From the NCBI RefSeq assembly GCF_003287455.1, contig NZ_PRLC01000001.1, positions 124,001-188,000 on the forward strand: DNA of 64,000 nt, written 5' to 3'. Under the pieces are notes generated by a model that was given only the letters and a program-made list of their open reading frames with translations, made no database searches and was not told the origin of the DNA. Source of the DNA: Faecalibacterium hattorii. Lineage in GTDB: Bacteria > Bacillota > Clostridia > Oscillospirales > Ruminococcaceae. A program made the position numbers and the translations under genes. This document shows positions 30,860 to 64,000 of this stretch, piece by piece; positions within the stretch are counted from its first letter, which is position 1; each line of letters starts with the position of its first letter.

Positions 30860-30860
30860 A

Positions 30861-48615: not shown

Positions 48616-48646
48616 CAAATTTCTGCAAAAAAGTTTGAAAAAGTGC

Positions 48647-48675
48647 TTGACAACTCCCGCCTTTTCCCGTATAAT
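48647..48675 (+). promoter_or_regulatory. tRNA-Gln promoter
   Basis: Perfect TTGACA-17-TATAAT, about 45 bp before the mature tRNA 5' end. Confidence 0.9.
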
Positions 48676-48719
48676 AGCACACGTTGAGCGGCTCGAAAGC
48701 CAAACAACAAAGCATATCT

Positions 48720-48793
48720 TGGGGATTTGCATAGTGGTAGTGCGGTAGACTCTGACTCTACTTGTGGGAGTTCGATTCTCTCATCCCCAACCA
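48720..48793 (+). tRNA. tRNA-Gln(CUG)
   Basis: Cloverleaf folded by hand: acceptor TGGGGAT / ATCCCCA, D-stem GCA/TGC, anticodon stem GTAGA/TCTAC with loop CTCTGAC (anticodon CTG), T-arm GGGAG-TTCGATT-CTCTC, discriminator A and encoded CCA. It reads CAG. It has its own promoter and terminator and stands alone. Confidence 0.95.
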
Positions 48794-48826
48794 AAAGCCA
48801 CCTGATGAAGATCAGGTGGCTTTTTT
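48793..48826 (+). terminator. Terminator after tRNA-Gln
   Basis: AAAGCCACCTGAT-GAAG-ATCAGGTGGCTTT with a T-run. It can also serve the convergent GNAT gene. Confidence 0.95.
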
Positions 48827-48847
48827 GTTTTCCGCAGCCGCCTCTTT

Positions 48848-49390
48848 TTACACCATTTTCTTCAGCAGATACCGATCATACCCGCCGTACATCTCCCGCC
48901 GGGCGGCGATGGTGAAACCGCTGGCGAGGGCATTGTTCAAACTGTACTGGTTTTCGGGGCTGACGGTGGCCCCGATGCCCACGATGCCGGGGCGGAGCAG
49001 GGGCAGCGCGGCTTCAAGGAGCTTGCGCTGCAAGCCGTTGCCCCGCCAGTCCGGGTGGACGATGGCACTGTCGGCGTTGGCCCAGTGGTCCCACTCGCTC
49101 TTCGGGACGCCCAGAAACGCCGCGTAATTGTGCTCACTCTGGCCGCAGTAGCGCAGGATGAAATAGGCTCCCAGCCGAGCACCGTCATACACGCCGAGGC
49201 AGAGATCTCCGGTCAGATAAGCCGTGATATTCTCCAGCGTATCGGGCACGAACTGCTCCGGGTGCGGCATGGCGGCGCACACCTCATTTTGCAGCGCGTA
49301 AAAGGCATCGGCGTCCGCCGGGCCGCAGCGGCGGATAGTTACAGGAAGTGCGGCGGGCTGGCCGCAGACCTTGTGCAGCAAAAGTTTCAT
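48848..49390 (-). CDS. GNAT-family N-acetyltransferase
   Basis: 180 aa. GGAGG lies 9 nt before the ATG at 49390. The acetyl-CoA loop reads HPDWRGNGLQRKLLEAA, and the later strand-helix ATVSPENQYSLNNALASGF matches GNAT motif B. Substrate unknown. It is convergent with tRNA-Gln and shares its terminator. Confidence 0.85.
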   Translation of the reverse strand: MKLLLHKVCGQPAALPVTIRRCGPADADAFYALQNEVCAAMPHPEQFVPDTLENITAYLTGDLCLGVYDGARLGAYFILRYCGQSEHNYAAFLGVPKSEWDHWANADSAIVHPDWRGNGLQRKLLEAALPLLRPGIVGIGATVSPENQYSLNNALASGFTIAARREMYGGYDRYLLKKMV

Positions 49391-49447
49391 TTTCAATCTC
49401 CTCCAAAATAAAATCATACTTTCTTCCGGATTCCAGTATAATTGCCG

Positions 49448-49476
49448 TTTGAAATCATCTTATCTTATGTTATAAT
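49448..49476 (+). promoter_or_regulatory. Promoter of the gntR-pyrBI unit
   Basis: TTTGAA, 17-nt spacer, TATAAT with an extended TGT element. The roughly 90-nt leader contains the GC-rich hairpin CGGGCGG-cagc-CCCGCCCG before the gntR ribosome site. Confidence 0.7.
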
Positions 49477-49574
49477 GAATGCAAGAAAAATTGTCCAGTG
49501 AAACTTTGGGGTCACAGGGCAGTTTTCTGCATGTCCGGGCGGCAGCCCCGCCCGTGAACCGGAGGATACAACCT

Positions 49575-50330
49575 ATGAAAGATTCCAGCTCTTCGTCTTC
49601 CATCCGCTTGGGCGGTGCGGTCATCAGTGACCGCATCGTAGCCGCGCTGCTGGAAGAACTGCGTACCGGCTGCTACGCCGACGCGGACCGTCTGCCCGCT
49701 GAGGTCGATCTGGCCGCACAACTTGGCGTCAGCCGCACCGTCATCCGCGATGCGCTGAGCGAGATGGAGCGTGCCGGATACATCGAGCGGGTGCGCGGCA
49801 TCGGGACCGTGGTCAACCGCACTGTGCTCAACCTGCGCAGCCGGTTGGATCAAAAGCTGGAATATTACCCGCTGATCCGCAGTTTTGGCAGCTACCCCCA
49901 CGCCGATGGCATCCAGATCTATCCCATCCGCGCCGGGGCCGAGCTGGCCCGCGATCTGGCCATTGCGCCGGGGGATGAGGTGATCTGCATCAAAAAGCGG
50001 ATCCTCGCCGATACCACCCCGGTCATCTACTCCATCGATTATCTGCCCCGTGCGCTGTTCGGCAGCCGGGACTACACCCGCATCGACCTGAGCGGCGGCG
50101 TGTTCGATATCTTGGAGCAGGAGTGCAGCCAGCAGATCTCGTCCAATGTCGCCCACCTGAAGGCCAGCTGCGGCGACGAGGCCATCCGCGCGGCCATGCG
50201 GCTGGCACCGGGCGAGGCCATGCTGCTGCTCGACGAGATCTGTTTCAATCGGCTGTGTCACCCAGTCATGCGTTCGCTGAGTTATTACACAAATTTCTTT
50301 GATTTTTCCATTCTGCGAAAATTACTTTGA
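49575..50330 (+). CDS. GntR/HutC-type regulator with UTRA domain
   Basis: 251 aa. CGGAGG precedes the ATG at 49575. The winged helix (LPAEVDLAAQLGVSRTVIRD, DALSEMERAGYIERVRG) is followed by a UTRA ligand domain (residues about 95-245). It lies 15 bp upstream of pyrB in the same orientation, so it is the first gene of the pyrBI unit. UTRA domains usually bind sugars, amino acids or related small molecules. Control of pyrimidine genes by such a protein would be unusual. Confidence 0.88.
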   Translation: MKDSSSSSSIRLGGAVISDRIVAALLEELRTGCYADADRLPAEVDLAAQLGVSRTVIRDALSEMERAGYIERVRGIGTVVNRTVLNLRSRLDQKLEYYPLIRSFGSYPHADGIQIYPIRAGAELARDLAIAPGDEVICIKKRILADTTPVIYSIDYLPRALFGSRDYTRIDLSGGVFDILEQECSQQISSNVAHLKASCGDEAIRAAMRLAPGEAMLLLDEICFNRLCHPVMRSLSYYTNFFDFSILRKLL

Positions 50331-50345
50331 CGGAGGTAAAAATTC

Positions 50346-51284
50346 ATGCGCCATCTGATCGACCCCTTGGATTTCAGCCCGGAAGAGATCGACTCCCTGC
50401 TGAACTTAGCTGACCGCATCCGATCCGACCCTGCTGCTTATCAGGACGTTGCGGCCCACAAAAAACTCGCCACCCTGTTCTACGAGCCGTCCACCCGCAC
50501 CCGCCTCTCCTTCGAGGCGGCCATGCTGAACCTCGGCGGACACGTGCTGGGTTTTCCGAGCGAGAACGTTTCCAGCGCTTCCAAGGGTGAAAGCGTCGCC
50601 GACACCATCCGCGTGATCTCCTGCTACGCCGACATCGTGGCCATGCGCCACTCCAAGGAAGGTGCGCCGCTCCGCGCTTCCCGCTACTCCCGCATTCCGG
50701 TCATCAATGCGGGCGACGGCGGCCATCAGCACCCCACCCAGACCATGACCGACCTGATGACCATCCGCTCCCGGATGGGCCGGCTGGACAACCTGACCAT
50801 CGGCCTGTGCGGCGATCTGAAGTTCGGCCGCACCGTCCACTCTCTCATCAAGACGATGGCCCGCTGCAAAAACATCCGCTTCGTGCTCATCAGCCCGGAG
50901 GAGCTGCGGGTGCCCGATTACATCATCAAGGATGTGCTGGAAGCCAAGGGCATCGAGTACCGTGAGACCCGCAGCCTTGAGGAATCCATGCCGGAGCTGG
51001 ACATCCTGTACATGACCCGTGTGCAGAAGGAGCGCTTCTTCAACGAGGAAGACTACATCCGCCTGAAGAACAGCTACATCCTGACCAGCGAGAAGATGGC
51101 GCTGGCCAAAGAGAACATGGCCGTGCTCCATCCCCTGCCCCGCGTAAACGAGATCGCGCTGGATGTGGACGACGACCCGCGTGCCGCCTATTTTGAACAA
51201 GTGCAGAACGCTGTCTACGTCCGTATGGCGCTGATCATGACACTGCTGGGTCTGCAGGACCCCAAGGCCAAGGAGGGCAACTGA
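50346..51284 (+). CDS. pyrB: Aspartate carbamoyltransferase catalytic subunit
   Basis: 312 aa. The carbamoyl-phosphate loop STRTRLSFE, the [10 protein letters not shown] motif and HPLPRVNEI are present. It condenses aspartate with carbamoyl phosphate in UMP synthesis. GGAGG lies before the ATG, and pyrI follows after 1 bp. Confidence 0.97.
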
Positions 51285-51285
51285 A

Positions 51286-51723
51286 ATGCTGAACATCGAT
51301 GAAATCCAGAATGGTATCGTGATTGATCACATCAAGGCAGGCACTGCCGTCGGCCTGATGGATCTGCTGGGCATCAAAGGCAACCGCACCGCCAGCGTGG
51401 CGCTGATCCAGAACGCCCGCTCCCACAAGGCGGAGGGCGGCCGCAAGGACATCATCAAGGTGGAGGGCGATGCTTCGTGGCTGAACCTCGATGTGCTGGC
51501 CTACCTCGACCCCAACATCAGCGTGACCATCATCAAGGACGGCAAGGCGGTCAAAAAGGAAAAACCCCAGCCTCCCAAGCGTCTGGTCAACATTGTGCGG
51601 TGCAAGAACCCCCGCTGCATCTCCTCCATTGAGGAAGAGTGCGACCAGATCTTCGAACTGAGCTCCAACGGCAAGTATCGCTGCATCTACTGCGAGCAGG
51701 AGCTTCAGGTCAAGCCGGAATAA
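51286..51723 (+). CDS. pyrI: Aspartate carbamoyltransferase regulatory subunit
   Basis: 145 aa. An N-terminal nucleotide-binding domain is followed by a zinc domain with C-x4-C (CKNPRC) and C-x2-C (CIYC). It gives allosteric control by CTP/ATP. Bacillus lacks it but many Clostridia keep it. AAGGAGGG lies 7 nt before the ATG. Confidence 0.95.
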   Translation: MLNIDEIQNGIVIDHIKAGTAVGLMDLLGIKGNRTASVALIQNARSHKAEGGRKDIIKVEGDASWLNLDVLAYLDPNISVTIIKDGKAVKKEKPQPPKRLVNIVRCKNPRCISSIEEECDQIFELSSNGKYRCIYCEQELQVKPE

Positions 51724-51736
51724 ATCCCTATCAAGC

Positions 51737-51775
51737 AAAAGAGCGGACGAGCCGTTGCACTCGTCCGCTCTTTTT
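51737..51775 (+). terminator. Terminator of gntR-pyrBI and the convergent cupin
   Basis: AAAAGAGCGGACGAG / CTCGTCCGCTCTTTT forms a perfect 15-bp stem. Confidence 0.95.
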
Positions 51776-51776
51776 G

Positions 51777-52121
51777 TTACACGAAATCCTCCCGCATGGG
51801 GGTGAAGATATCCAGCAGGATGCCCGCTTCGGTGCAGACGCAGCCATGCTCCACGCCGTCCTCCTTGAGGATGGTGTCGCCCTTGTGGACGGTACGGGTC
51901 ACACCGTCCACCGTGAACTCGAAGGCACCGGAGACCACATAGGTGATCTGGGTGTGGGGGTGGTGGTGCAGTGCGCCGACCGCGCCCTTTTCAAAGGTAT
52001 TCTCCACGCACATCAGGCCGTCTGTATAGGCCAGCACCCTGCGGGTGACGCCCGCGCCTGCGGGCTGCGGCAGAGTGTCCTCATGCAGGACCCAGCGCTG
52101 TTTCTTCTCCGGCAGTTTCAT
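51777..52121 (-). CDS. Small single-domain cupin
   Basis: 114 aa from the ATG at 52121 (AAGGA 6-7 nt upstream). Cupin motif 1 is HHHPHTQITYVVSG with three His-type metal ligands; motif 2 is the region around DGVEHGCVCTEAG. Function is unknown; such proteins are isomerases, dioxygenases or sugar-binding sensors. It lies downstream of the structured RNA candidate at 52.2-52.5 kb and has its own promoter overlapping that RNA's terminator. Confidence 0.85.
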   Translation of the reverse strand: MKLPEKKQRWVLHEDTLPQPAGAGVTRRVLAYTDGLMCVENTFEKGAVGALHHHPHTQITYVVSGAFEFTVDGVTRTVHKGDTILKEDGVEHGCVCTEAGILLDIFTPMREDFV

Positions 52122-52138
52122 AAACGTTCCTTCTTTCC

Positions 52139-52163
52139 CGGCCCCGCTGCGGGGCCGTTTTTT
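52139..52163 (+). terminator. Plus-strand intrinsic terminator in the cupin leader
   Basis: CGGCCCCGC / GCGGGGCCG with a minimal loop, then TTTTTT on the plus strand. It points away from the cupin gene, so it would stop transcripts running antisense, or it may act as a hairpin in the cupin mRNA leader. Confidence 0.6.
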
Positions 52164-52169
52164 ATTTCC

Positions 52170-52198
52170 ATTATAAAAAGGCAGAACCCGTTTGGCAA
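52170..52198 (-). promoter_or_regulatory. Promoter of the cupin gene
   Basis: Minus-strand TTGCCA, 17-nt spacer, TATAAT. The -35 lies in the loop of the upstream RNA's terminator. Confidence 0.7.
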
Positions 52199-52484
52199 GA
52201 GTTCCGCCTTTGTTTACAACTAAAAAAGCCCTATCCGAAGCTCTCTCCACTGCCGCATCGAAAAGCGCATCCCGTTCCCACACAACGACGCGCACCGACA
52301 CGGCCCTTAAAAGAGTCTCTATAAACAGCAATCCCCCGATCACCGTCAAGAGCTTCGTTAGGACTTTTCACCAGACAAGGCTGCAAAACAGCACACACGC
52401 TCTGCGGCTCTGCCCTCTCCCCCGCCAGCACCTCCGAATTGCTTCGGCCGCAATGCACTGGCTCTGGAGTTCCGCCTTGTTCTT
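52175..52484 (-). ncRNA. Candidate structured non-coding RNA or long leader, about 310 nt
   Basis: No reading frame here has a ribosome site and protein-like sequence. A promoter lies directly upstream. A 5' hairpin is formed by GCCAGUGC and GUGCUGGC. A long helix pairs 52348-52368 with 52222-52246 (about 20 bp, one mismatch, one bulge) and encloses the hairpin GCCGUGUCG / CGAUGCGGC. A minus-strand terminator, AAAGGCGGAACTC / GGGTTCTGCCTTT with TTTTT (52175-52211), ends it. Wobble pairs make it stable only on the minus strand. I match it to no RNA family I know. It could be a free RNA or a leader controlling the cupin gene. Confidence 0.6.
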
Positions 52485-52490
52485 AACCAG

Positions 52491-52519
52491 ATTATACCAA
52501 ATGCCGCCGGGCATTTCAC
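52491..52519 (-). promoter_or_regulatory. Promoter of the candidate RNA
   Basis: Minus-strand GTGAAA, 17-nt spacer, TATAAT. The spacer carries the dyad AAATGCC-GCCG-GGCATTT (52499-52516), which may be an operator or the terminator of the upstream kinase gene. Confidence 0.6.
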
Positions 52520-52549
52520 CCGAAATGTCATATTCTGCGGGGGAGGATG

Positions 52550-53833
52550 TCATATTTTGCGGACGGGCACCGAACAGGTGAACCGGAACCATTTTTCCCG
52601 GCAGCTGATGGTGTATTCGCCCTGATATTTGCGCAGCACGTCGGTCACGTTCCACAGGCCCATGCCGTGCCCCGGCTCCTTTTTGGTGCTGCGCGGGAGC
52701 TGGCCGTCCGGAAGGTCGAGGTTCTTCTGCACCCGGTTCCGCACCGAGACCAGCAGCTCCGCCTCTGTTTTGCGCATCCGAAAATACACCTCCGGCGGGT
52801 CGGCTTTTGCAGCGGCATCAATGGCATTATTGAGCAGGTTGGACACCACCATCACAAGGTCGGTGTTGTCCAGCGGGATCTCCCGCAGGTCCGGCAGGTC
52901 AAAGTAGAGCATGACTCCCTCGCGGCTGGCTTCCTCATACTTTTTGCTCAACAGGGCATCCAGCAGCGGGTTGTGGGTGTCCATGATGGTGGTGTTGGCC
53001 GCAATGGTCTTGGTCACCGTTGCAAGATACGCCTTGGCCTCCTCGTACTCTCCCTGCTGCAAAAGCAGGGCCAGCGCATCGGTGTGGTTGGTGAACTCAT
53101 GGGTCAGGCGGCGCTGGGTGGTATAAGAGTCCATCAATGCCTCGGCGCGCTCCCGCTCCAGCGCTGCCTGAACGTGGAGCGCTTGCTGCTGCGCCATCTG
53201 ATCGTTGAACATCTGGACGATGCCCATATGGATGAGCACTGCCACAGTCAGGCCCAGCGTCAGCAAAAGCATCAGGAAATCGGCGGGCTTGTCCTCGGCG
53301 GAGATCATCAGCACCACGTTCAGCACCACCGTGATGCCGGGAAAGAAGGACATCACCAGCGCCTGTGGGGATTCCAGCGCCCGTTCAGTCTTCCATCTGT
53401 GGGCAAAGTAGGCCACCAGAACGCCCACGATGACATTCGTGATGGTCATTGCCACAAGGCAGTCCATCCGTTTCCAGATCATCAGAAGCGAGGTATGCGT
53501 CACCCACGAAGCCACATACCGGACGGTATTTTCCGCCAGCAGACACATGGTGCCGTTGATGAGGGCCGCCGTCAGCTTCTGGGCCAGCGTGCCGCCGAAC
53601 ACCAGCGTGGAGACCAGCACGAAGCCGACATTTTCCCAGATGCTCAGCAGGGTGAAGAAACCGATATTGAGCTTGATGCCAAGGAACAGCTCCCCCGCCA
53701 CCAGTACAGTCGTCCAGAGCCAGAGCGGCCGCACCCGGCCTTTGCCGAGGTAGGCGTAGTCCACCATGATAAAGGCGCACCACTGCGAAATACAGACGAT
53801 GTGGCCGATCAGAAACCACGATTCAGGATTCAT
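52550..53833 (-). CDS. AgrC-like (HPK10) sensor histidine kinase
   Basis: 427 aa. Six or so transmembrane helices occupy residues 1-215. A dimerisation helix with the phospho-acceptor His (RRLTHEFTNHTDALALLL) is followed by a GHKL ATPase domain (VVSNLLNNAIDAA N-box, GHGMGLWNV G-box). It has no large external sensor domain, like AgrC kinases that sense peptides in the membrane. It overlaps the LytTR response regulator gene by 11 bp. No agrB/agrD-type gene is adjacent. Confidence 0.92.
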   Translation of the reverse strand: MNPESWFLIGHIVCISQWCAFIMVDYAYLGKGRVRPLWLWTTVLVAGELFLGIKLNIGFFTLLSIWENVGFVLVSTLVFGGTLAQKLTAALINGTMCLLAENTVRYVASWVTHTSLLMIWKRMDCLVAMTITNVIVGVLVAYFAHRWKTERALESPQALVMSFFPGITVVLNVVLMISAEDKPADFLMLLLTLGLTVAVLIHMGIVQMFNDQMAQQQALHVQAALERERAEALMDSYTTQRRLTHEFTNHTDALALLLQQGEYEEAKAYLATVTKTIAANTTIMDTHNPLLDALLSKKYEEASREGVMLYFDLPDLREIPLDNTDLVMVVSNLLNNAIDAAAKADPPEVYFRMRKTEAELLVSVRNRVQKNLDLPDGQLPRSTKKEPGHGMGLWNVTDVLRKYQGEYTISCREKWFRFTCSVPVRKI

Positions 53834-54551
53834 CGCTGAACTGCCCCTTCCATTCCAGATAGGTCGCCCGGATGGCTGCATAGCCGTTCCGGCTGACGCT
53901 CAGTTCCACCCCGTTGCGCAGCGTTACCTTGTAGCCGCTGATCTGGCGGATGTAGCGCATATTCACCACATCGCTCCGCCCCACCCGCAGGAAGCCGTTC
54001 TCGAACAGCTCGGCGGGCAGGTCGGTTAGCTTGCCGTAATAGGAGCAGAGCGGCTGATGCGGCACGTCCCCGTAGACGTTCACCTTCCGCAGGTCGCTTT
54101 CGAGGCAATAGATGCTGTCATAGGGCAGCTCCATCTCGGTGCGGTTCTGCCGGATGGTCAGCACCTTGCGGCCGCTGGCCGTCTTTTCGCGGAAGAGGGC
54201 CTCCAAGCAGTTGGGCAGCATCCGCTCCATGTCCCGCTTGAGGATGTAGCGGAACGCATTGACGGTGTAGCCCTCCGGCGCAAATTCCAGATAGGCAGAG
54301 ATGTAGATGAGGGCGATGTCCGGGCTGGACTGGCGCAGCTGGCGGCCCAGTGAGATGCCGTTCATGGTGTCAAGGTCCACGTCCAGCAGCGCCACTTGAT
54401 AAAGCTCCAGATGTGGGGTGGCAAGGGCCTCCTCGCCGCGGGTGCAGACGGTGATCTGGGCCGGGATCCCGCGCTGGGCCAGCTCGTCCCGGACTTTCTG
54501 CTCCACCCGCGCGGCAAACCGTGCATCGTCATCGCAGATCAACAAGTGCAT
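53823..54551 (-). CDS. LytTR-family response regulator
   Basis: 242 aa. The receiver domain has the acidic pocket CDDD and phospho-acceptor Asp in LLDVDLDTMNG. The C-terminal LytTR DNA-binding domain includes ELFENGFLRVGRSDVVNMRY and ISGYKVTLRNG. It pairs with the kinase encoded after it. AGGGAGGAGAC precedes the ATG. Confidence 0.93.
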   Translation of the reverse strand: MHLLICDDDARFAARVEQKVRDELAQRGIPAQITVCTRGEEALATPHLELYQVALLDVDLDTMNGISLGRQLRQSSPDIALIYISAYLEFAPEGYTVNAFRYILKRDMERMLPNCLEALFREKTASGRKVLTIRQNRTEMELPYDSIYCLESDLRKVNVYGDVPHQPLCSYYGKLTDLPAELFENGFLRVGRSDVVNMRYIRQISGYKVTLRNGVELSVSRNGYAAIRATYLEWKGQFSDES

Positions 54552-54571
54552 AATGGAGTCTCCTCCCTCTC

Positions 54572-54606
54572 GAAAAAAGCGGGCTTCCCCATAGGAAGAG
54601 CCCGCT
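54572..54606 (-). terminator. Terminator of the NSS transporter gene
   Basis: Minus-strand AGCGGGCTCTTCC / GGAAGCCCGCT stem followed by TTTTTT. Confidence 0.9.
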
Positions 54607-54617
54607 CTCTGGTATTG

Positions 54618-55988
54618 TTAGGCGAAGAATTTGTCGTAGATGCCGAAGGCAAAGATGAACAGAACGATCAGCGGCAGACCGTAGGACAGATAGCCGCGCA
54701 TCCAATCCTGCATCTTGGGGCCGTCGCCGGTGTTGACTTCCTTCTTGTAGTTGTTCCAGCCCCAGCCATAGCGGGAGACGCAGAACAGCAGGTAGACCAG
54801 CGAACCCAGCGGCAGGAACAGGTTGCTGACGAGGAAATCCTCGAAGTCCAGCACCGCGCCGCCGAACACAGCAAAGCCGTCCCAGCTCCAGATATTGTAA
54901 CCCAGCACGCAGGGCATGGACAGCGCAATGATAAGGAACAGGTTCACGATGCTGGACTTCTTGCGGGTGCAACCGGTCAGCTCCATGCCGCAGCAGATGA
55001 TGTTCTCAAACACCGCCAGCACGGTGGACAGTGCCGCGAAGGCCATGAACAGGAAGAACAGGCTGCCCCACAGGCGGCCCATGGCCATGTTGGCAAAGAT
55101 GTTGGGCAGGGTGATGAAGATCAGGCTGGGACCGGCGGTCTGGTCCACGCCATAGGTAAAACAGGCCGGGAAGATGATCAGACCCGCCGTGATGGCTACG
55201 AAGGTATCCAGCGCCACGATGCGGATGGACTCGCCCAGCAGCGCGTGCTCCTTGCCGATATAGCTGCCGAAGATGGCCATGGCACCGATGCCGAGGCTCA
55301 GGGTGAAGAACGCCTGATTCATGGCGCCCACCAGCGTGTTGACCACGCCGACTTCCTTCATCCGGGCGAAATCGGGCACGAGGTAGAAGCTCAGGCCCTC
55401 CTTCGCGCCGGGCATGAACAGACTGTTGACCGCGAGGACGACCATGATGACGAGCAGCGCGATCATCATGACCTTGGTCACCCGCTCAAGGCCGTTCTGC
55501 AGGCCCTTGGCGCAGACCAGAATGCCGAACGCGACCACGAAGACCATCCAGAACGCCATGACGCCGGGGTTTGCCAGCATCTCGCTGAAGGCATTCGTCA
55601 CCTGCCCGGTGCTCAGGCCGGACAGCTTCCCGGCCGCTGTCATGTAAAAATAGTGCAGCATCCAGCCCGCAACGGTGGTGTAAAACATCATCAGCAGATA
55701 GCACCCGATGAGGGTAAAATAGCCGTGGATGTGCCACTTCTGGCCCGGCTTTTCCAGCGCCTGATAGGCGCGCACCGGACTCTTGCGGCTGGCGCGGCCC
55801 ACTGCAAATTCCATGGTCATGATGGGCAAGCCCAGAATGACGAGGAAGAGCAGATAGAACAGCACGAAGGCACCGCCGCCGCCCTGACCCGCCATATACG
55901 GGAATTTCCAGACGTTGCCGATGCCGATAGCGCATCCCGCCGAGAGCAGGATGAAGCCCAGCCGCGATTTTAGGGTCTCACGTTCCAT
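54618..55988 (-). CDS. Neurotransmitter:sodium symporter (NSS) family transporter
   Basis: 456 aa with about 11 helices, starting at the ATG with GAGGAG upstream. The signature of the first helix is SAGCAIGIGNVWKFPYMAGQGGGG (quoted here in part: AIGIGNVWKFPYMAGQGG), with unwound Na+/substrate residues. Prokaryotic NSS proteins import amino acids, for example LeuT and MhsT. The specific amino acid cannot be told. Monocistronic, between the two-component system and the nucleotidase. Confidence 0.93.
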   Translation of the reverse strand: MERETLKSRLGFILLSAGCAIGIGNVWKFPYMAGQGGGGAFVLFYLLFLVILGLPIMTMEFAVGRASRKSPVRAYQALEKPGQKWHIHGYFTLIGCYLLMMFYTTVAGWMLHYFYMTAAGKLSGLSTGQVTNAFSEMLANPGVMAFWMVFVVAFGILVCAKGLQNGLERVTKVMMIALLVIMVVLAVNSLFMPGAKEGLSFYLVPDFARMKEVGVVNTLVGAMNQAFFTLSLGIGAMAIFGSYIGKEHALLGESIRIVALDTFVAITAGLIIFPACFTYGVDQTAGPSLIFITLPNIFANMAMGRLWGSLFFLFMAFAALSTVLAVFENIICCGMELTGCTRKKSSIVNLFLIIALSMPCVLGYNIWSWDGFAVFGGAVLDFEDFLVSNLFLPLGSLVYLLFCVSRYGWGWNNYKKEVNTGDGPKMQDWMRGYLSYGLPLIVLFIFAFGIYDKFFA

Positions 55989-56047
55989 GATGTTTTTTTC
56001 TCCTCTGTAATCCTTTTGTCCGCCCTCCCCGCACAGTTTGGGAGAGC

Positions 56048-56066
56048 ATAATAAGGTTATTATATC
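56048..56066 (-). promoter_or_regulatory. NSS transporter promoter with overlapping dyad
   Basis: Minus-strand extended -10 TGATATAAT (56059-56067 region) overlaps the perfect 7-2-7 dyad ATAATAA-GG-TTATTAT (56048-56063). The rest of the roughly 307-bp gap holds the terminator at 56212 and no gene that I can see. Confidence 0.6.
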
Positions 56067-56211
56067 ACACTTTCCCCCGTTTTCGGCGGGTTTTATGCAA
56101 TTTTGGAGAAGAAAAAGATTCACTTTTGATACAGGCGAAAAGAACAAGATTTCACAAGATGCAAAAAATGGAATGCTGCGATCTGGTGTGGTCAACAGCT
56201 AACGGCAGAAC

Positions 56212-56253
56212 AACGCCTCCCCGTGTAGGATGCGTTCTACATGGGGAGGCGTT
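56212..56253 (-). terminator. Terminator of the 5'-nucleotidase gene
   Basis: AACGCCTCCCCGTGTAG / CTACATGGGGAGGCGTT forms a 17-bp stem with one mismatch. T-rich sequence follows on both strands. Confidence 0.88.
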
Positions 56254-56295
56254 TTGTTCCCTTTGATTTCCTATTTCAGAGCGTCCGGAGCAGCC

Positions 56296-58071
56296 TTACC
56301 AGATGATCTGGATGCGGCCCGCGCCGTAGGGTTCCTCATAGTTGAGGAGGTAGCCGGGATAATCGGCCAGCGGGCTGTTGGCGCTGCTCAGGTGAGGCAG
56401 ACCGTTCCCGTCCACACCGCCGAACATGGCCGCGTAGCTGGACATGACGAGGTAGTCCTCGGAGACATAGTCCTTGATGAGGGTCGCACCGTCGAACATC
56501 GCAAAGCCGTCGCCGAGGTTGCGCAGGGTATAGTTCATACCGGCCAGCGCATAGGTGGCGCTGGGGTTCAGCGGCTCATAGGTGCCGGTGGTCTTGTTGT
56601 AGATTTCCACGTTGGTCACGCGGGGGGTGGTGGCGCTGCCCTGCCAGACGTTCTTGTCGTCGGTGAGGACAGTGTTGGGCATCATGGCGTGGATCTCATA
56701 CCGGGCACCGGCCACATGCAGGAAGCCGCCGTTCTCCTTGCCGTCCGAACCCACAAAGCGGGCACCGAACTCCAGCGCGTCTTGGATCTGCTGACCGGTG
56801 ACGGACATCAGGCAAGCCACATTGCCGAAGGGGCTGACGGTCTTGCAGGTCTTGAAGCTCCACGGGCCCGCGTCCACATCGGTGCGGATGCCGCCGCCGT
56901 TCATGATGGCGATATCGCAGTGCAGTTCTTCGATCTCGTTGAAGTAGGTATAGATGCCGTCGGCCACGAAGTCGCCGAGGTTGGTCTCGCCGGAGCGGAT
57001 GCGGCGCTTGCCGGTGGCGGGGTCATTGATGTAGAACTTGGAGTCGCCCACAGCGATCTCCTCGCCCAGCATATCGTCCACAGCGCTGATCCACTCGGCG
57101 GCAGTGGCGGCCACGGCTGCGTCCGCGCCCTCGTAAGTATGGATCAGTTCGGTGGTAATGGTACCGTCCGCACCGATGGTCATCTTGCCGACATTCTTGA
57201 AGTAGGAGCCGGTCTGGGTCAGGGTGACGGCCTTGCCGGAGGCATCGGCCACCTGCTTGTTCTCCATCACGGTGTGGGAGTGGCCGTCGATGAAGGCGTC
57301 GAAGCCGGTGGTATGGGCGATGACCTCTTCACTGGTCCACGGCGAAGAGGAGGGATCCACGCCCAGATGGCCGAGGCCGATGATGTACGTTGCGCCAAGG
57401 AACTTTGCCTTGTCGATGGCCTTCTGGACCGCATTGTACAGCTTCTGGCCGTCGTCGCCGCCGAGGATATCATAGATGTACTTGGTCTGGCTGGCGTTCA
57501 TGAAGTAGGCCGGGGTGGATTTTGTGAAGGTCTCCGGGGTGGTGACGCCCACAAAGGCGATGCGGGCACCGCCGATGGTGAACATCTTGATGGTGGGCAG
57601 CACCTTCAGGCCGGTGCGCAGATCGACCCAGTTGCAGGAGATGTAGGTGAAGTCGGCTTCCTTCATGACCGCCTTGGCGCGGGCCATGCCGTAGTCGAAT
57701 TCATGGTTGCCGGGGGTGGCCAGATCGTAGCCCGCCTCGTTCATCAGCTTGATGATGGTCTCGCCATCGTCCATGGAGCCATAGGCGGTGCCCTGAATGT
57801 GGTCACCGGCGTCCACGAGCAGGACGTTCTGGCCCGCATCCTCGTAGCTCTTTTTCAGCGCAGCGATGGCGGCATAGGTCAGTTCGGGGGACTTTTTGTC
57901 GATGTAGGTGTGCACATCGTTGGTGTAGAGGATGGTGACCGCCGATTTGTCACCAAGGAAGCAATTGGTCTCTTCGGCCGACGCCGCGGGCGCAGCAAAC
58001 GAGACTGCGGTCAGTGCAGTGGCAGCTCCAGTAGCCTTCATAAAGCTGCGGCGGGAAATGAACTGTTTCAC
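56296..58071 (-). CDS. Secreted 5'-nucleotidase / metallophosphatase (UshA-like)
   Basis: 591 aa. The GTG start at 58071 has GGAGG 9 nt upstream. A twin-arginine-like signal peptide (SRRSFMK, then a hydrophobic core and ASA cleavage) is visible. The metallophosphatase domain has NDVH, DAGDHIQG, GNHEFD and GHSHT. The C-terminal 5'-nucleotidase domain has NGGGIRTDV. It dephosphorylates nucleotides outside the cell to allow nucleoside uptake. There is no lipobox or wall anchor. Confidence 0.92.
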   Translation of the reverse strand: MKQFISRRSFMKATGAATALTAVSFAAPAASAEETNCFLGDKSAVTILYTNDVHTYIDKKSPELTYAAIAALKKSYEDAGQNVLLVDAGDHIQGTAYGSMDDGETIIKLMNEAGYDLATPGNHEFDYGMARAKAVMKEADFTYISCNWVDLRTGLKVLPTIKMFTIGGARIAFVGVTTPETFTKSTPAYFMNASQTKYIYDILGGDDGQKLYNAVQKAIDKAKFLGATYIIGLGHLGVDPSSSPWTSEEVIAHTTGFDAFIDGHSHTVMENKQVADASGKAVTLTQTGSYFKNVGKMTIGADGTITTELIHTYEGADAAVAATAAEWISAVDDMLGEEIAVGDSKFYINDPATGKRRIRSGETNLGDFVADGIYTYFNEIEELHCDIAIMNGGGIRTDVDAGPWSFKTCKTVSPFGNVACLMSVTGQQIQDALEFGARFVGSDGKENGGFLHVAGARYEIHAMMPNTVLTDDKNVWQGSATTPRVTNVEIYNKTTGTYEPLNPSATYALAGMNYTLRNLGDGFAMFDGATLIKDYVSEDYLVMSSYAAMFGGVDGNGLPHLSSANSPLADYPGYLLNYEEPYGAGRIQIIW

Positions 58072-58252
58072 AGGAAATGACCTCCTTTTGATCGTACAAC
58101 ACGGTTTTGCGGCACAGGCTCTCTCCCCCGCGCCGTATTTGTAGTATAAGCATAACACACTTTGACACTTTTCTCAAGGCAAAACCGTAGATCCTGCGCA
58201 AAATCATTTCACGAAAGTCGTACTTTTTATGAGTTTTCTGTAAATTTTCACG

Positions 58253-58301
58253 AAAAAAGGCCGAGTCCTGCATCCCGTCTCAGGCTTGCAGGGCCCGGCC
58301 C
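58253..58301 (-). terminator. Terminator of oleate hydratase gene
   Basis: Minus-strand GGCCGGGCCCTGCA / TGCAGGACTCGGCC (two imperfect positions) followed by TTTTTT. Confidence 0.85.
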
Positions 58302-58353
58302 CATTCAGGGGGAGATCCAAAAACGGATCGGAGAAATCATTTCGGCATGCACG

Positions 58354-60126
58354 TCAGATGGCGTGATACTCCTTGAGGAACTTTTCAAGGTCAGTGCCCT
58401 CGATCTTCTTGAGCACTTCCTTGAGCGCGACTCGCTGGATGAACGGCAGGTTCATCTCGGTGATCTTCTTGCCGTCCCGGAGCTTCACGGTAGCATCGAT
58501 CAGGCTGCGGACGTCATAGGTGCTGCCCCAAACCTCCGGCACGCCGCGGTCGATGTTCAGCAGCGTGTAAACGGCCTCCATGCCGGTGCGCATCGAATAC
58601 TCGGTGGTGAAGATGGTGTCGCGGCCGGTCTCGGCGAACTGGCCGAGGAAAGCGAAGTTGACGGCACCCTGCGGCACGATATCGGGGCGGTCGCCGAAGG
58701 CACGCGGCATGAAGAAGGCGTCGATATAGGGCATCATGACCGGCACGGTGTTGGCGCTGTGTTCGGCCAGCTCAGCGATTTCCTCGGTGGGCACGCCCAG
58801 ATGGTACAGCCACTCCATGCAGATCTCGCGGCCGGTGCAGTCCCGCATGGGCTTCTTCACATAGTCGCCGGGCTTGTCGCTGAACAGGCCGTAGACCCAG
58901 ACGCAGAGCTGATTCTTGGGCTGGTCACGGAACTGCTGCTGGCGATTCAAGGTCCAGCTGAGCAGCCAGTTGGAATCCTTGACGGTCACGATGCCGCCGG
59001 TGACGGTGTGACCGGTGAAGGGGTCGCGCTTGCAGATCTTCTTGATATACTGGGGGATCTTGTCGTCCAGCGTGGTGATGGTCGCGCTCTCCCAGTTGGA
59101 CAGTTCCGGCTGCGAGCAGAACTTTTCGGGATGGCCGAAGGAGGGGTCCTGCGCGGCGATCTTCTTCCACAGATCCCAGCCGTTGCCCGGCTTGATGGCG
59201 GGGTCGAACCCCGCCGCCTTGTCCTGCGAGCCGATGGTGCAGCTCTCGACGCAGCCGCCGTTGGTGATGAAGAGCAGGTCGTTCTCCGTCAGGTCCAGCA
59301 CCTTTTCCTCACCCTTGTGCTCCACGGTGATGGAGCTGGCCTGTTTCTTGCCGTCCTCGATCTTGAAGCGGACATCCGTGACCTTCGTCTCGTACTGGAA
59401 CTCCACGCCGTGCTCCTTCAGGTAGGTGACCATGGGCAGGATGATGGACTCGTACTGGTTGTACCGGGTGAAGCGCAGGGCGGTGAAATCCGGCAGACCG
59501 CCGATGTGGTGGATATAGCGTTTGAGATAGAGCTTCATCTCCAGTGCGCTGTGCCAGTTCTCGAAGGCGAACATGGTGCGCCAGTAGAGCCAGAAATTCG
59601 AAGAGAACACCTCATCGTCAAAAATGTCGGTGATCTTCTTATCCTGCAGCTGCTCGTCCGGGGTGAAGAAGAGCTTCATGATCTCCATGGCACCCTTATC
59701 GGAAATGGCGAATTTGCCATCGGTGTGGGCGTCCTGCCCGCGCTTTTCGGTGGCGCGGCAGAGGGACTTGTTGGGGTCTTCCTTGTTCAGCCAGTAATAC
59801 TCATCGAGGACGCTGGCCCCTTCCGTTTCCAGCGAGGGGATGGAGCGCAGCAGATCCCACATGACCTCGAAGTGGTTGTCCATCTCGCGGCCGCCGCGCA
59901 TCACATAGCCAATGTCGTACTTGTAACCGTCGCAAGCGCCGCCGGGCAGCGGGTCCTTTTCAAACACATGGATGTGTTCGCCCTTCATCTGACCGTCCCG
60001 GACGAGATAGCACGCTGCGGTCAGCGCCGCCAGACCCGAACCAATGATATAGGCAGATTTATCATCGACACCCTCCGGCTTGCGGGGATGTGCAAAGGCT
60101 TCGTAGTTGCCACTGGAATAATACAT
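58354..60126 (-). CDS. ohyA: Oleate hydratase (MCRA family)
   Basis: 590 aa, FAD enzyme. Nucleotide-binding IGSGLAALTAACYLVRDG near the N-terminus and the MCRA-typical GGREMDNHFEVMWDLLRSIPSL (quoted in part: GREMDNHFEVMWDLL). It hydrates cis-9 double bonds of free unsaturated fatty acids to 10-hydroxy acids, detoxifying dietary or host fatty acids. AGGAGG lies about 9 nt before the ATG. Monocistronic. Confidence 0.95.
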   Translation of the reverse strand: MYYSSGNYEAFAHPRKPEGVDDKSAYIIGSGLAALTAACYLVRDGQMKGEHIHVFEKDPLPGGACDGYKYDIGYVMRGGREMDNHFEVMWDLLRSIPSLETEGASVLDEYYWLNKEDPNKSLCRATEKRGQDAHTDGKFAISDKGAMEIMKLFFTPDEQLQDKKITDIFDDEVFSSNFWLYWRTMFAFENWHSALEMKLYLKRYIHHIGGLPDFTALRFTRYNQYESIILPMVTYLKEHGVEFQYETKVTDVRFKIEDGKKQASSITVEHKGEEKVLDLTENDLLFITNGGCVESCTIGSQDKAAGFDPAIKPGNGWDLWKKIAAQDPSFGHPEKFCSQPELSNWESATITTLDDKIPQYIKKICKRDPFTGHTVTGGIVTVKDSNWLLSWTLNRQQQFRDQPKNQLCVWVYGLFSDKPGDYVKKPMRDCTGREICMEWLYHLGVPTEEIAELAEHSANTVPVMMPYIDAFFMPRAFGDRPDIVPQGAVNFAFLGQFAETGRDTIFTTEYSMRTGMEAVYTLLNIDRGVPEVWGSTYDVRSLIDATVKLRDGKKITEMNLPFIQRVALKEVLKKIEGTDLEKFLKEYHAI

Positions 60127-60191
60127 AACGCAGACCTCCTGAATTTTGGATGTTTCCGGGCGGCGTTCCCGCTCGCCCTTTCGTTGTGCTT

Positions 60192-60220
60192 AGTATATCC
60201 CACCACTTATGACAGAACAA
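60192..60220 (-). promoter_or_regulatory. Promoter of ohyA
   Basis: Minus-strand TTGTTC, 17-nt spacer, TATACT. Confidence 0.6.
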
Positions 60221-60334
60221 CATACAAAAACCGAACAGTGTATAAAATTTATGCAAAAAGCAACTTTTGTCGGAAAAGTGAACGAAGTGTGTCCGTCCCC
60301 ATCGATTTCTCAAACCGTTTTCACCTTCTGATCC

Positions 60335-60373
60335 TTGAACTTCCGCTCTTTTCAGTGTATACTAATTTAGTAT
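60335..60373 (+). promoter_or_regulatory. Methyltransferase promoter with palindrome over the -10
   Basis: TTGAAC, 17-nt spacer, TATACT (60335-60363). The perfect dyad ATACTA-ATT-TAGTAT (60359-60373) covers the -10 and start region. The 323-bp ohyA-methyltransferase gap otherwise holds the divergent ohyA promoter and no gene that I can see. Confidence 0.7.
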
Positions 60374-60449
60374 GTCTATCACCGTTTGCCGGGACGCAGC
60401 TCATTTTTCTGTTGTGTCAGCATTGGCCGATCAAAGGAGAATCCCACCC

Positions 60450-61919
60450 ATGAAGGATCATTTTCAGCCCGCCGCATTCGAACAGTTGGCCTTTCCCCTG
60501 CCAACTGCCGAAGACGATCAACTGATTCAGAAGCTGCGGGAACTACCGGAGGATTATTGGGATTTCAAGGCCGATGATACCCACGAATACACCCACGGGC
60601 TGCACAATTATCCCGCCATGATGGTCAGCCCCATCAGCCGGAATCTGATCCGGATCACTTCTTCCATCCGGCCGGTGCACTCGCTCTTCGACCCCTTCTC
60701 CGGCTCCGGCACCGTGCTGGTGGAAGGAATGCTTGCGGGGATTCCCACAGTCTGCGGCAACGATATCAACCCCCTTGCCCTGTTGCTCTGTCGCGTAAAG
60801 ACCACACCGCTTGACCCGATCCATCTGCGGAAGGTTTGCTCCGCCCTTCTCGACCAGATTCATACGCTTTACCAACGGGACGAATCGTTTTTTTCCGGTG
60901 CCGACCACTATATGCGAGAAGTTCTCGGCCTTGACCTGACTGCAAAAGACAATTGGGGTTCCGATGCACCCAGCTATCTGAAGGAATACTGCCTTTCCTG
61001 CCGTCGTGCCGATTTTGAAATTCCCTCGTTCAAAAATATCGGCTACTGGTTCAAGCCAAATGTTATTCTATCCCTGCAGCTCATCAAAAACTGCATCTTA
61101 GAAATTTCGGATGAACCGATCCGTAACTTTGTGTTTGTTGCTTTCAGTGAATCCATTCGGCTCGTCTCCAACCGGCGGAACGGCGAGTTCAAGATGTTCC
61201 GGATGCCGCCGAAAAAGGTTGCCGCCTTTTCCCCCAGCGTCATCGGCGAATTTTCCAAGATCCTCTCCCGCAACATCGAGAAAATGGGCAATTTCTATGC
61301 CGCGTGTCGCAACACTTCCCGCGTGACGATCCACCGGGATAACGCTACCGAATTGAAAAGTATCCCGGATGACATGTTCGATCTTGTCATTACTTCTCCG
61401 CCCTATGGGGACAGCCGTACGACCGTTGCCTATGGCGAATACAGCCGCCTCTCGCTTCAGTGGCTCGGCCTTGGGCATCTCACCGAAAAGGAGATCCTTG
61501 GCATCGACCGCAGTCTGATGGGCGGAAAAAAATACAGGAAAGGCTTTGCTTCCCACCTCCACAGCCCAACGCTGCAAAATTCGCTGGAACAAATTTCCGC
61601 CATCGATTTGGAGCGTGCCGGAGATGTCTATAGCTTTTATGAAGACCTCGACGCATCCATCCGTGCCGTGTCGGAAAAGACAAAAGCGGGCGGCTATCAG
61701 TTCTGGGTCGTCGGCAACCGCACCGTGAAAAAAGTGCTTCTGCAAACTGATGTTATCATCTCTGAACTGGCGTCCCTCTACCATTTGCAGCATGTTTATA
61801 CCATTGATCGCAATATTCCCAATAAGGTCATGCCTTCCCTGAACTCCCCTACCAATGAGGCCGGAGCCAAAGTCACCACGATGACCAACGAACACATTGT
61901 GGTCCTCCGCAAAATTTGA
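60450..61919 (+). CDS. Type II DNA (cytosine-N4) methyltransferase
   Basis: 489 aa from the ATG at 60450 (AAAGGAG upstream). The AdoMet motif DPFSGSGT lies near residue 85 and the catalytic motif TSPPYGDS near residue 315, separated by about 220 residues likely holding the target-recognition region. The S-P-P-Y tetrad is typical of N4-cytosine enzymes. It is convergent with an MvaI/BcnI-family endonuclease and should protect that enzyme's sites. Lower local GC than the neighbours suggests transfer. Confidence 0.9.
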   Translation: MKDHFQPAAFEQLAFPLPTAEDDQLIQKLRELPEDYWDFKADDTHEYTHGLHNYPAMMVSPISRNLIRITSSIRPVHSLFDPFSGSGTVLVEGMLAGIPTVCGNDINPLALLLCRVKTTPLDPIHLRKVCSALLDQIHTLYQRDESFFSGADHYMREVLGLDLTAKDNWGSDAPSYLKEYCLSCRRADFEIPSFKNIGYWFKPNVILSLQLIKNCILEISDEPIRNFVFVAFSESIRLVSNRRNGEFKMFRMPPKKVAAFSPSVIGEFSKILSRNIEKMGNFYAACRNTSRVTIHRDNATELKSIPDDMFDLVITSPPYGDSRTTVAYGEYSRLSLQWLGLGHLTEKEILGIDRSLMGGKKYRKGFASHLHSPTLQNSLEQISAIDLERAGDVYSFYEDLDASIRAVSEKTKAGGYQFWVVGNRTVKKVLLQTDVIISELASLYHLQHVYTIDRNIPNKVMPSLNSPTNEAGAKVTTMTNEHIVVLRKI

Positions 61920-61922
61920 AAA

Positions 61923-61966
61923 AGAACCCCTGCCGCGCAGCTTTTCGCCGCACGGCGGGGATTCTG
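61923..61966 (+). terminator. Terminator between convergent methyltransferase and endonuclease
   Basis: AGAACCCCTGCCG pairs with CGGCGGGGATTCT (one bulge and small mismatches). It lies directly after the methyltransferase stop. Confidence 0.7.
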
Positions 61967-61969
61967 CTT

Positions 61970-62689
61970 TTACACGACCTTTCGATTTACTTTGAACAAC
62001 TTCGGCTGATCGATTTCACGGATTCGGAAGCCCGTTCCATGGTCGTGCGTCTTTCCATTTGCATACTGCCCAATCCGCAGGTCAATATAGATTCTGCCTT
62101 GTTCCAGCAGCTCGATCATCGCATCATAATCAAATCCGCTTACCTCGTAAGCTTCTTCAAAATAAAACTCCTCATCCGCACCCGTCCCGCGGGACTGCGC
62201 CTTTGCATAAACAAATTTGTTCTTGTATTTCTTTTCAAACGCTTTGCGGAGTTTTTCCCGCTCCCAGTATACATTTTCTGTTCCGAGTTCCGATGCGATC
62301 GAAATTTTCTGAGCATCGCACACGATCTTCAGCTGATGCCCGGTATCTGCAATAGGAACAAAATGCGCTGCCGTCAGAGTGGAGTGCAAAACCTTTTCCT
62401 CATTGTCATAGACACTGCTGGAATAGCCGTATTTCAGCCGGAGATATGTATTTGCTTTCGGAGGCTGCGGTGTTTTGGTGAACATCGTCAACATGCTCTG
62501 TGAATTCACCCGGCAGGATTTCAGCTCATATTCCCCGAAGTCCGGCGCATCATGATTGTTTTCTTCAATGCCCAGCAGGTCTTCCAGTGTCTTGCCAACG
62601 CCTGTCGGCCCGGCGCGATGTGTCCGGATCCAGCCCATTTCCTTGATTTTTCGGTACTCTCGGATAAAGTCTTCCAGCGTGTAGATCAT
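61970..62689 (-). CDS. MvaI/BcnI-family Type II restriction endonuclease
   Basis: 239 aa. The N-terminal region GPTGVGKTLEDLLGIEENN followed by DFGEYELKS matches the MvaI/BcnI monomeric endonucleases. The catalytic residues are the Asp of PDFGE and the E-x-K pair in YELKS. This family cuts CCWGG (MvaI) or CCSGG (BcnI), acting as a monomer. AAAGGA precedes the ATG. AT-rich codon use differs from the surrounding genes. Scarcity of CCWGG in this chromosome segment argues for MvaI specificity. Confidence 0.92.
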   Translation of the reverse strand: MIYTLEDFIREYRKIKEMGWIRTHRAGPTGVGKTLEDLLGIEENNHDAPDFGEYELKSCRVNSQSMLTMFTKTPQPPKANTYLRLKYGYSSSVYDNEEKVLHSTLTAAHFVPIADTGHQLKIVCDAQKISIASELGTENVYWEREKLRKAFEKKYKNKFVYAKAQSRGTGADEEFYFEEAYEVSGFDYDAMIELLEQGRIYIDLRIGQYANGKTHDHGTGFRIREIDQPKLFKVNRKVV

Positions 62690-62714
62690 ATGTTTTCCTT
62701 TCGTTTTTTCTATA

Positions 62715-62745
62715 AAAAATGGCCCGCATTTCGCGAGCCATTTAA
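62715..62745 (-). terminator. Terminator of rnr
   Basis: Minus-strand AAATGGCTCGC / GCGGGCCATTT (one wobble) followed by TTTT, just after the rnr stop. Confidence 0.85.
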
Positions 62746-62754
62746 TAAAATCTA

Positions 62755-64000
62755 TTACTGCTTATTCTCCGGGGCGACCTCAAAATCGACCTTGCCGAGG
62801 TTGACGTCGGCGCGGACGATGGTGATCATCATGCTGTCGCCGAGGTTCCAGTTCTTGCCGGAAACGGGGTCGGACAGGCGGATGCCCTCGGTGAGGGTGG
62901 TGCCGGTAGCCGTCAGGCTGGAAGCGGGCACGAAGCCCTCCACGCCGTTCTCCAGCTCGACGAAGAGGCCGCGCTGGGTGACGCCGGAGATGATGCCCTC
63001 GTAGCACTCGCCTAGATGGCGGCGGGCGTACTCCGCCTTATAGCAGTCCTCGGCCTTGCGCTCAATCTGCACGGCGATGACTTCCCGCTCGCTGGACTGC
63101 TTGGCTGCCTGTGCCGCAAAGTCGGTGTAGCGGATGGCCATGGTTTCCTTGTCGGTGCCACTGAGCAGGTCGGTCATGATGCGGTGGATGGCAAGGTCCG
63201 GGTAACGGCGGATAGGGCTGGTGAAGTGAGCATAGTCTTTCAGCACCAGACCGTAGTGGCCCTTGGGTTTCTCCTCATAACACGCCTTGGACATGCAGCG
63301 GAGCATACCGGTGTTGATGATCTCCTCAAAGGAGGTGCCGCGCACACCTTCCAGAATCCCGCTCAGCTCCTTGGGGGTGGGCACATCCTTGGCGAAGTGG
63401 TCGTTGATGCCGCATGCCTGAAGCAGAGCGTGGAGACGCTCCAGCTTCTCGCCGTTGGGTTCCTCGTGGACACGGTAGACGAAGGGGATCTGCTTAACAC
63501 GGGCGAAGTGGGCCGCGCACTGGTTGGCCAGCAGCATGAACTCCTCGATCATGGCCTCGCTCTCGCCGGAGGTGCGCTTCTTGACGTCGATGCAGTGGCC
63601 GTCCTCATCGAGGATCAGCTTTACTTCCCCGCTCTCGAAGTCGATGCAGCCGCGCTCGGTGCGCAGACGGGCACGGTGGCCGTACAGCTCCTTCATGGCG
63701 GGCAATTGATCCAGCACTTCGGCGTACTTTGCCTGAATCTCGGCATCCGCCGTCCCGGCCAGCAGGGCGTTGATCTCAGAATACACACCCTTGACCCGGC
63801 TGCAGATGACCGACTTGACGAAGCGGTAATCGGTCAGGTTGCCGTCCTTGTCCAGACGCATCAGGCAGGAGAATGCAAGGCGCAGCTCCTTCTCGTTCAG
63901 CGAGCAGATGCCGTTGGACAGGCTCTTGGGCAGCATGGGCACCACCTGATCCGCGTAGTACACAGAGGTGGCGCGGTTGAAGGCTTCCTCATTCAACTCC
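62755..64000 (-). CDS. rnr: Ribonuclease R, C-terminal part (cut by window edge)
   Basis: About 415 residues are visible; the N-terminus lies beyond the right edge, and the first visible TTG is internal. The RNB catalytic domain shows TSVYYADQVVPMLP (RNase II/R signature), SFEEIINTGMLRCMSKACY and HFTSPIRRYPDLAIHR. It is followed by an S1 RNA-binding domain (GIISGVTQRGLFVELENGVEG). It degrades structured RNA 3' to 5'. The protein ends soon after S1 without a long basic tail. Confidence 0.95.
   Translation of the reverse strand, partial: ELNEEAFNRATSVYYADQVVPMLPKSLSNGICSLNEKELRLAFSCLMRLDKDGNLTDYRFVKSVICSRVKGVYSEINALLAGTADAEIQAKYAEVLDQLPAMKELYGHRARLRTERGCIDFESGEVKLILDEDGHCIDVKKRTSGESEAMIEEFMLLANQCAAHFARVKQIPFVYRVHEEPNGEKLERLHALLQACGINDHFAKDVPTPKELSGILEGVRGTSFEEIINTGMLRCMSKACYEEKPKGHYGLVLKDYAHFTSPIRRYPDLAIHRIMTDLLSGTDKETMAIRYTDFAAQAAKQSSEREVIAVQIERKAEDCYKAEYARRHLGECYEGIISGVTQRGLFVELENGVEGFVPASSLTATGTTLTEGIRLSDPVSGKNWNLGDSMMITIVRADVNLGKVDFEVAPENKQ

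Follow-up and report, generated by a model that had tools for sequence, protein, structure and literature searches.

Faecalibacterium hattorii carries a gene pair that resembles a restriction-modification system of the MvaI kind, inserted at a junction that is empty in its sister genome, and the sequence CCWGG has been lost almost completely from its core DNA. We observed no CCWGG in the window, the whole stretch of 64,000 nucleotides that was analyzed, and none of the sites that the sister genome G161 has in aligned DNA is kept. We consider it probable that a CCWGG system of the MvaI kind was acquired horizontally after the split from G161 and that, because its protection was imperfect, selection purged the sites from the core genome.

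The gene pair and its insertion

The insertion comprises two genes and lies between two conserved neighbors, as follows.

60277..62754, no strand assigned: inserted restriction-modification cassette, GC 0.50 compared to ~0.60 for the window
60450..61919, + strand: predicted Type II DNA amino-methyltransferase, 489 aa, with FDPFSGSGT at residue 80 and TSPPY at residue 315
61970..62689, − strand: predicted MvaI/BcnI-family restriction endonuclease, 239 aa, with D50, E55, K57 and a C-terminal THDHGTGFRI
58354..60126, − strand: left neighbor of the insertion, an open reading frame found close to the right neighbor without the cassette in seven congeners
62755..63996, running off the window end, − strand: right neighbor of the insertion, an open reading frame with a match in 29 of the 31 genus genomes, F. 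hattorii included

Both genes lie at the positions given in the first-pass annotation, as independent and convergent genes for modification and restriction. Their GC contents of 0.48 and 0.52 are below that of the host, and the nuclease gene was found once in the assembly (2.79 Mb in 54 contigs). The left neighbor is a putative oleate hydratase and the right neighbor a putative RNase R.

The nuclease matches the MvaI/BcnI profile PF15515 over its whole length (residues 10-232 against profile positions 2-227 of 227; E 9e-49, 166.9 bits with a cut-off of 25). Its best match of solved structure is R.MvaI (2oa9, E 8.4e-32), followed at a distance by R.BcnI (2odh, E 4.8e-12). D50, E55 and K57 align with D, E and K of 2oa9, presumably the PD...ExK catalytic residues of MvaI, and the C-terminal THDHGTGFRI is near to MvaI and less so to BcnI. 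The methyltransferase matches the PADLOC profile MTase_II PDLC03322 (E 1.5e-129) and, just above the cut-off of 26.7 bits, Pfam N6_N4_Mtase (27.7 bits). Amino-methyltransferases carry an AdoMet motif FxGxG and a catalytic (D/S)PPY motif, and FDPFSGSGT and TSPPY agree with both. Judged by these matches, the pair appears to be an ordinary Type II restriction-modification system of the MvaI kind, made up of two genes.

The position of the cassette was compared among congeners. The alignment with G161 stops at window position 60276 and restarts at 62755, and between these points G161 has only 77 bp, which contain a terminator-like hairpin. In seven genomes (G161, G150, G162, G159, G149, G158 and G176) the two neighbors lie 0.2 to 0.7 kb apart and neither cassette gene is matched. 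At 21 other congener loci the left neighbor was not seen in the flank of up to 1.5 kb, and two of the 31 genus genomes gave no match to the right neighbor. By protein and family search the nuclease occurs in 1 of 31 genus genomes, F. hattorii alone, and this search likewise found no diverged MvaI-family nuclease in the CCWGG-depleted congeners. The methyltransferase was also found only in F. hattorii among the congeners; a match in G158 at 21% identity (E 2e-5) was not counted. A tree from nine aligned segments of 21 genomes, in which some reading frames are provisional, places G161 as the sister of F. hattorii, followed by G150. G161 and F. hattorii share 88.7% nucleotide identity and differ at 24% of four-fold sites. 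By parsimony, the cassette would thus have been inserted on F. hattorii's own branch.

CCWGG counts and site-by-site loss

The first-pass annotation had noticed that CCWGG was missing from the stretches read line by line. This extends to the whole 64-kb window (1..64000), which has 0 sites compared to 196.6 (sd 13.6) in 100 dinucleotide shuffles and 174 under a maximal-order Markov model. CCSGG, remarked upon as frequent in the same genes, is present at a normal level, with 268 sites and a shuffle expectation of 248.7. Across the genome, counts of GCCWGGC and of its reversed control are 18 and 236 in F. hattorii, compared to 473 and 287 in G161.

Twenty contig starts were fetched without regard to their content, and with four discarded (short, all N) this gave 16 stretches of 20 kb. 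Together these contain 30 CCWGG where the Markov model expects 806, and 1221 CCSGG where it expects 1048. Most of the remaining CCWGG (28 of 30) fall in six stretches with a GC content of 0.49-0.54 and a joint expectation of 252. A 344-kb core set, composed of the window, the other ten stretches and four later ones and chosen after the stretch counts had been seen, contains 7 CCWGG compared to 951 expected. The avoidance is therefore genome-wide, as proposed at first sight, and almost total in core DNA, but it does not extend to mobile islands, where CCWGG is ordinary.

Over homologous 20 kb, G161, G150 and G148 have 49, 42 and 125 CCWGG, respectively, and the F. hattorii window has 0. We then compared sites individually in 88 kb aligned with G161, a relative at the level of species rather than strain that lacks the system. 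All 188 CCWGG of G161 are absent from F. hattorii. Sites that G161 has in common with at least one outgroup are probably ancestral, and 0/64 of these are kept, whereas ten control words have kept fractions between 0.38 and 0.86 (each Fisher comparison with CCWGG < 0.001). The control counts were 118/149 for CCSGG, 163/228 for GCWGC, 222/305 for CCAGC/GCTGG, 38/54 for CGWCG, 25/29 for CTSAG, 23/48 for GGWCC, 19/47 for CAWTG, 4/8 for GASTC, 7/16 for TCWGA and 3/8 for ACWGT. A single base accounts for the loss at 62 of the 64 ancestral sites. In a smaller gene set, none of 14 CCWGG present in both G161 and G150 is kept, and 12 of these 14 were lost without an amino-acid change in the frames used.

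Expressed as lower bounds, the CCWGG loss rate is at least 8.8 to 13.2 times that of the four most numerous control words, at least 20.8 times that of CTSAG and at least 3.1 to 4.5 times that of the five least-kept words. From these bounds, the data suggest that 2Ns, the scaled selection per site, lies in the range from several to ten or more. If the 188 sites in 88 kb of G161 are scaled up, thousands of sites would have been lost genome-wide. The first-pass annotation had further proposed that the lineage has lived under this selection for a long time. This is borne out in so far as CCWGG in G161 and G150 already stands at about half the expected count, but the last step, down to almost no sites, belongs like the insertion to the F. 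hattorii branch.

A bias in codon use or composition that has nothing to do with restriction might produce such a deficit, since GC content and codon use vary among genomes. We rejected this candidate on the sister comparison: at 88.7% identity and similar GC, G161 has 188 sites to none here. Word-based expectations of 174 to 197 sites for the window also speak against it, as does the normal level of CCSGG, and we give it practically no credence.

The kinds of change at lost sites bear on whether mutation or selection removed them. Among 66 changes, we counted 19 C>T at the first C, 17 C>G, 12 C>A and 10 C>T at the second, 6 C>G at the first and 2 at the central base. Methylated cytosines are mutation hot spots, and the base methylated in the MvaI system is the internal C. 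Sites might therefore decay by deamination of the methylated cytosine to T, with mutation and not selection as the driving force. In agreement with this, C>T at both positions together makes up 29/66 changes compared to 9/42 in lost CCSGG (Fisher p 0.02), and at the outer C 19/66 compared to 5/42 (p 0.06). However, at the internal C the 10/66 C>T changes are no more than in the control (4/42, p 0.56) and are accompanied by 29 transversions. Moreover, 35/66 of all changes are C transversions, a type of change that deamination does not produce and that would proceed at the control rate if there were no selection, and the site-dense islands described below have not decayed. Deamination as the sole cause was rejected on the share of transversions, and we regard a purely mutational origin as highly improbable. 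The C>T excess is modest and could reflect methylation-related mutation or an effect of codon position; deamination may thus contribute but cannot be the whole cause. Selection against CCWGG is the best explanation of the losses, since these are mostly single-base, of many kinds and faster than for every control word.

Residual sites, depleted congeners and homologous loci

The CCWGG sites that remain in F. hattorii are mainly clustered. Two islands were fetched for their CCWGG sites. The first has 31 in 13.6 kb, where 25 are expected from base composition and 34 from the Markov model; the second has 30 in 13.1 kb, with expectations of 24 and 40, respectively. The pieces adjoining them, of 4.4 and 5.0 kb, have none. 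Genes for a phage-type integrase, a Mob_Pre relaxase and a DUF5906 protein lie in the first island, and a 5.4-kb part of it has 100% identity to the phage record MT837704, from human faeces. A SpoIVA match elsewhere in the analysis gives the genome the look of a spore-forming member of the Clostridia. We read such site-rich islands as recent arrivals that are still unpurged. If the nuclease is active, the islands must carry methylated CCWGG; their presence beside an intact nuclease gene suggests that the methyltransferase may indeed protect CCWGG.

Two observations on gene content were made in DNA of this type. On contig C2 (L171:4400-18000), the mobile element with the integrase, the relaxase and the phage-identical part also encodes two radical-SAM proteins next to an MFS transporter, and our guess is that this set might be a modified-peptide cluster. 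On contig C10 (L170:5475-9362 and 9274-11781), a 1295-aa frame with GLUG motifs and an MMPL-family frame lie in an unpurged island of variable GC.

Depletion of CCWGG and presence of the system do not fully coincide in the genus: the sister without the system has 188 sites to none in F. hattorii, but G149 and the G164 group are depleted without it. Observed and expected CCWGG in genomes without an MvaI-family gene are 30/572 in G149, 62/399 in G164, 16/145 in G175, 54/293 in G176, 4/61 in G155 and 8/63 in G160, and G173, G174 and G159 are depleted to a lesser degree. The simplest reading is that other or lost CCWGG systems acted in these congeners. Searches of the 31 genus genomes for the MvaI family and EcoRII-C found no other CCWGG system behind the depletion; EcoRII-C had no match in any of the 31, a weak negative given that 14 control genomes were also without a match. 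In the wider family set, GCCWGGC compared to its reversed control is scarce in G122 (1/144), G061 (12/390), G035 (8/82) and G136 (7/132), which have no MvaI-family protein match.

Since congeners are depleted without an MvaI-family gene, another cause acts in the genus and might account for part of the purge in F. hattorii. A CCWGG-specific system that was present earlier on the branch, and is now lost or unrecognized, might have removed the sites, with the present cassette settling harmlessly afterwards. The strong depletion of G149, G164, G175, G155 and G160 without an MvaI-type system is in line with such a history, as is the cassette GC below that of the host, as in a fairly young arrival; a newcomer cassette would also be best tolerated by a site-free genome. 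Against it stand the absence of EcoRII-C from the 31 genus genomes, a point weakened by the equally empty controls, and the fact that close homologues elsewhere also go with depletion. We judge this history unlikely, and acquisition before the purge remains our preferred reading.

Other palindromes are nearly absent as well, in different parts of the genus tree. In counts covering 344 kb of F. hattorii core, 220 kb of G161 and loci of G150, G149, G159 and others, CCCGGG is low in F. hattorii (2/168) and G161 (4/124) and kept in G150 (96/139) and G149 (130/150). The same two genomes are low in CTCGAG (3/70 and 1/48), for which G150 has 12/25 and G149 69/78. G149 is low in GAGCTC (3/87) and GGGCCC (4/85), G159 in GGGCCC (0/17) and G150 in GGCGCC (2/80). 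GTCGAC is low in many (5/86 in F. hattorii, 1/44 in G161, 1/51 in G149), but not in G164 (4/12) or G157 (6/13).

Close homologues of the nuclease were examined at 12 loci (L022, L023, L028-L036 and L038). Ten named loci, from assemblies labelled Ruminococcus, Lachnospiraceae, Peptococcaceae, Clostridium and uncultured Clostridia, have nuclease homologues at 71-79% identity and 11 CCWGG in 124 kb compared to 80.6 expected. Two further words deviate in the same pool (GGCC 77 compared to 233, GATC 288 compared to 475), with CCWGG having the lowest ratio of six words. A convergent methyltransferase at 56-63% identity accompanies the nuclease in 10 of the 12 loci (split into two pieces in L036); L023 stops within the nuclease, and in L031 the 1.3 kb past the nuclease gave no methyltransferase match. 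The nuclease of L033 has an in-frame stop and the frame of L036 is broken, and CCWGG is still low at both (3 and 0, respectively). At L037:2613-3185, an MvaI-family match ends at residue 191, beyond which, as we read the letters, the frame seems to run on into integrase-like sequence. This locus has no methyltransferase match within 13 kb and an ordinary CCWGG count of 22 compared to 22.9, and six distant family members summed also show no depletion (88 compared to 92.2).

Whole-genome counts of WCCWGGWW on the forward strand agree with the locus counts in direction but are less sharp, and their ratios are rough because the control word, GGWCC in AT context, is itself avoided in the genus. Eleven carriers have 21 to 190 copies (0.11 to 2.1 of the control), compared to 23 (0.09) in F. 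hattorii and 629 (6.0) in the L037 genome; the ratios are 1.5 to 7.0 for the six distant members, 1.9 for G161 and 2.6 for G150. The other carriers are thus depleted less completely than F. hattorii, and some overlap non-carriers in their count (G181 has 141, control 68). Since the same convergent arrangement recurs in the homologue loci and on a Lactococcus plasmid described below, the gene pair appears to be one coherent mobile system.

The first-pass annotation had assigned CCWGG as the recognition site. Three indirect observations agree with this: among solved structures the best match is R.MvaI, the purge affects CCWGG but not CCSGG, and the DNA around close homologues is depleted. From this we infer that the system recognizes CCWGG.

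Proposed explanation and comparison with known systems

In the explanation that we favor, the cassette would have arrived by horizontal transfer between two conserved genes after the split from G161, and before the purge. With both enzymes active, the methyltransferase would shield CCWGG imperfectly, and each copy would carry a small risk that the cell cuts or nicks its own DNA, the cost on which selection acted. Our own suggestion for such damage is that a monomeric nuclease of the MvaI kind might nick CCWGG when it is hemimethylated. Selection would then have swapped sites out through whatever single-base change arose until the core was nearly site-free, while new mobile DNA would still bring CCWGG in.

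The driving force might instead be the methylation itself, for example if it disturbs gene expression, so that the methyltransferase and not the nuclease would cause the loss. Harm by methylation is discussed in the part of Rusinov et al. (2015, PMC4687349) drawn on here. The two genes occur together, which makes their effects inseparable in these data. However, the loss is near total and spread across ordinary coding positions, at which methylation would seldom be expected to have an effect, and we find this explanation very unlikely.

The purge may be so advanced that the core is now protected by its sequence rather than by methylation. In the core the methylase would be near idle and serve mainly new arrivals, addiction to the system would be gone, the cassette would act as a nearly sequence-defined filter and the genus would hold a layered record of purges. 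We put this forward tentatively, as an idea that could well prove wrong. If it is true, the cell should survive losing the system, and a single tree could serve to measure what each site costs under many restriction systems. The genus seems to provide several such purges. Arguments about the host cost of restriction systems usually rest on averages across many genomes. In the present case this cost can be traced per site, because the insertion, a sister without the cassette and outgroups are all available. On a practical level, a CCWGG-dense stretch in a F. hattorii genome is probably a recent arrival, and our results suggest that DNA for introduction into this species should be CCWGG-free or CCWGG-methylated.

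The system is closest in kind to R.MvaI (2oa9, 2oaa), which cuts at CCWGG. The alignment covers nuclease residues 13-224 and has D50/E55/K57 and THDHGT.FRI in common, and the R.MvaI site is the very word purged in F. hattorii, where specificity is read from sequence. R.BcnI (2odh), with the site CCSGG, belongs to the same Pfam family but matches more weakly, and CCSGG is not avoided in F. hattorii. A plasmid-borne system of Lactococcus lactis (NZ_CP065985 and two further records) has a nuclease 74.5% and a methyltransferase 67% identical to those described here, and in NZ_CP065985 the gene pair is convergent, as in F. hattorii. NZ_CP065985 differs in having a helix-turn-helix gene immediately before the nuclease; F. 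hattorii has none, and the 65 bp between the nuclease start and the next gene leave no room for one.

Site avoidance is a known effect. In the sections of Rusinov et al. (2015, PMC4687349) considered here, orthodox Type II systems, with separate restriction and modification genes, avoid their own site and leave traces in relatives without the system, and lost systems that leave avoidance traces are also described. The avoidance threshold given there is 0.78 of expectation. F. hattorii falls below it at 0.04 in the unselected stretches and 0.007 in the core, ratios from a maximal-order Markov model where that study used the Karlin measure. Among titles and abstract openings, we found no literature directly on CCWGG avoidance or on near-complete site absence. 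The value of the present case is its completeness, its placement on one branch and the sister with an empty site. Compared to the cases in those sections, the purge in F. hattorii can be assigned to a single branch, beside a sister that has the empty insertion site.
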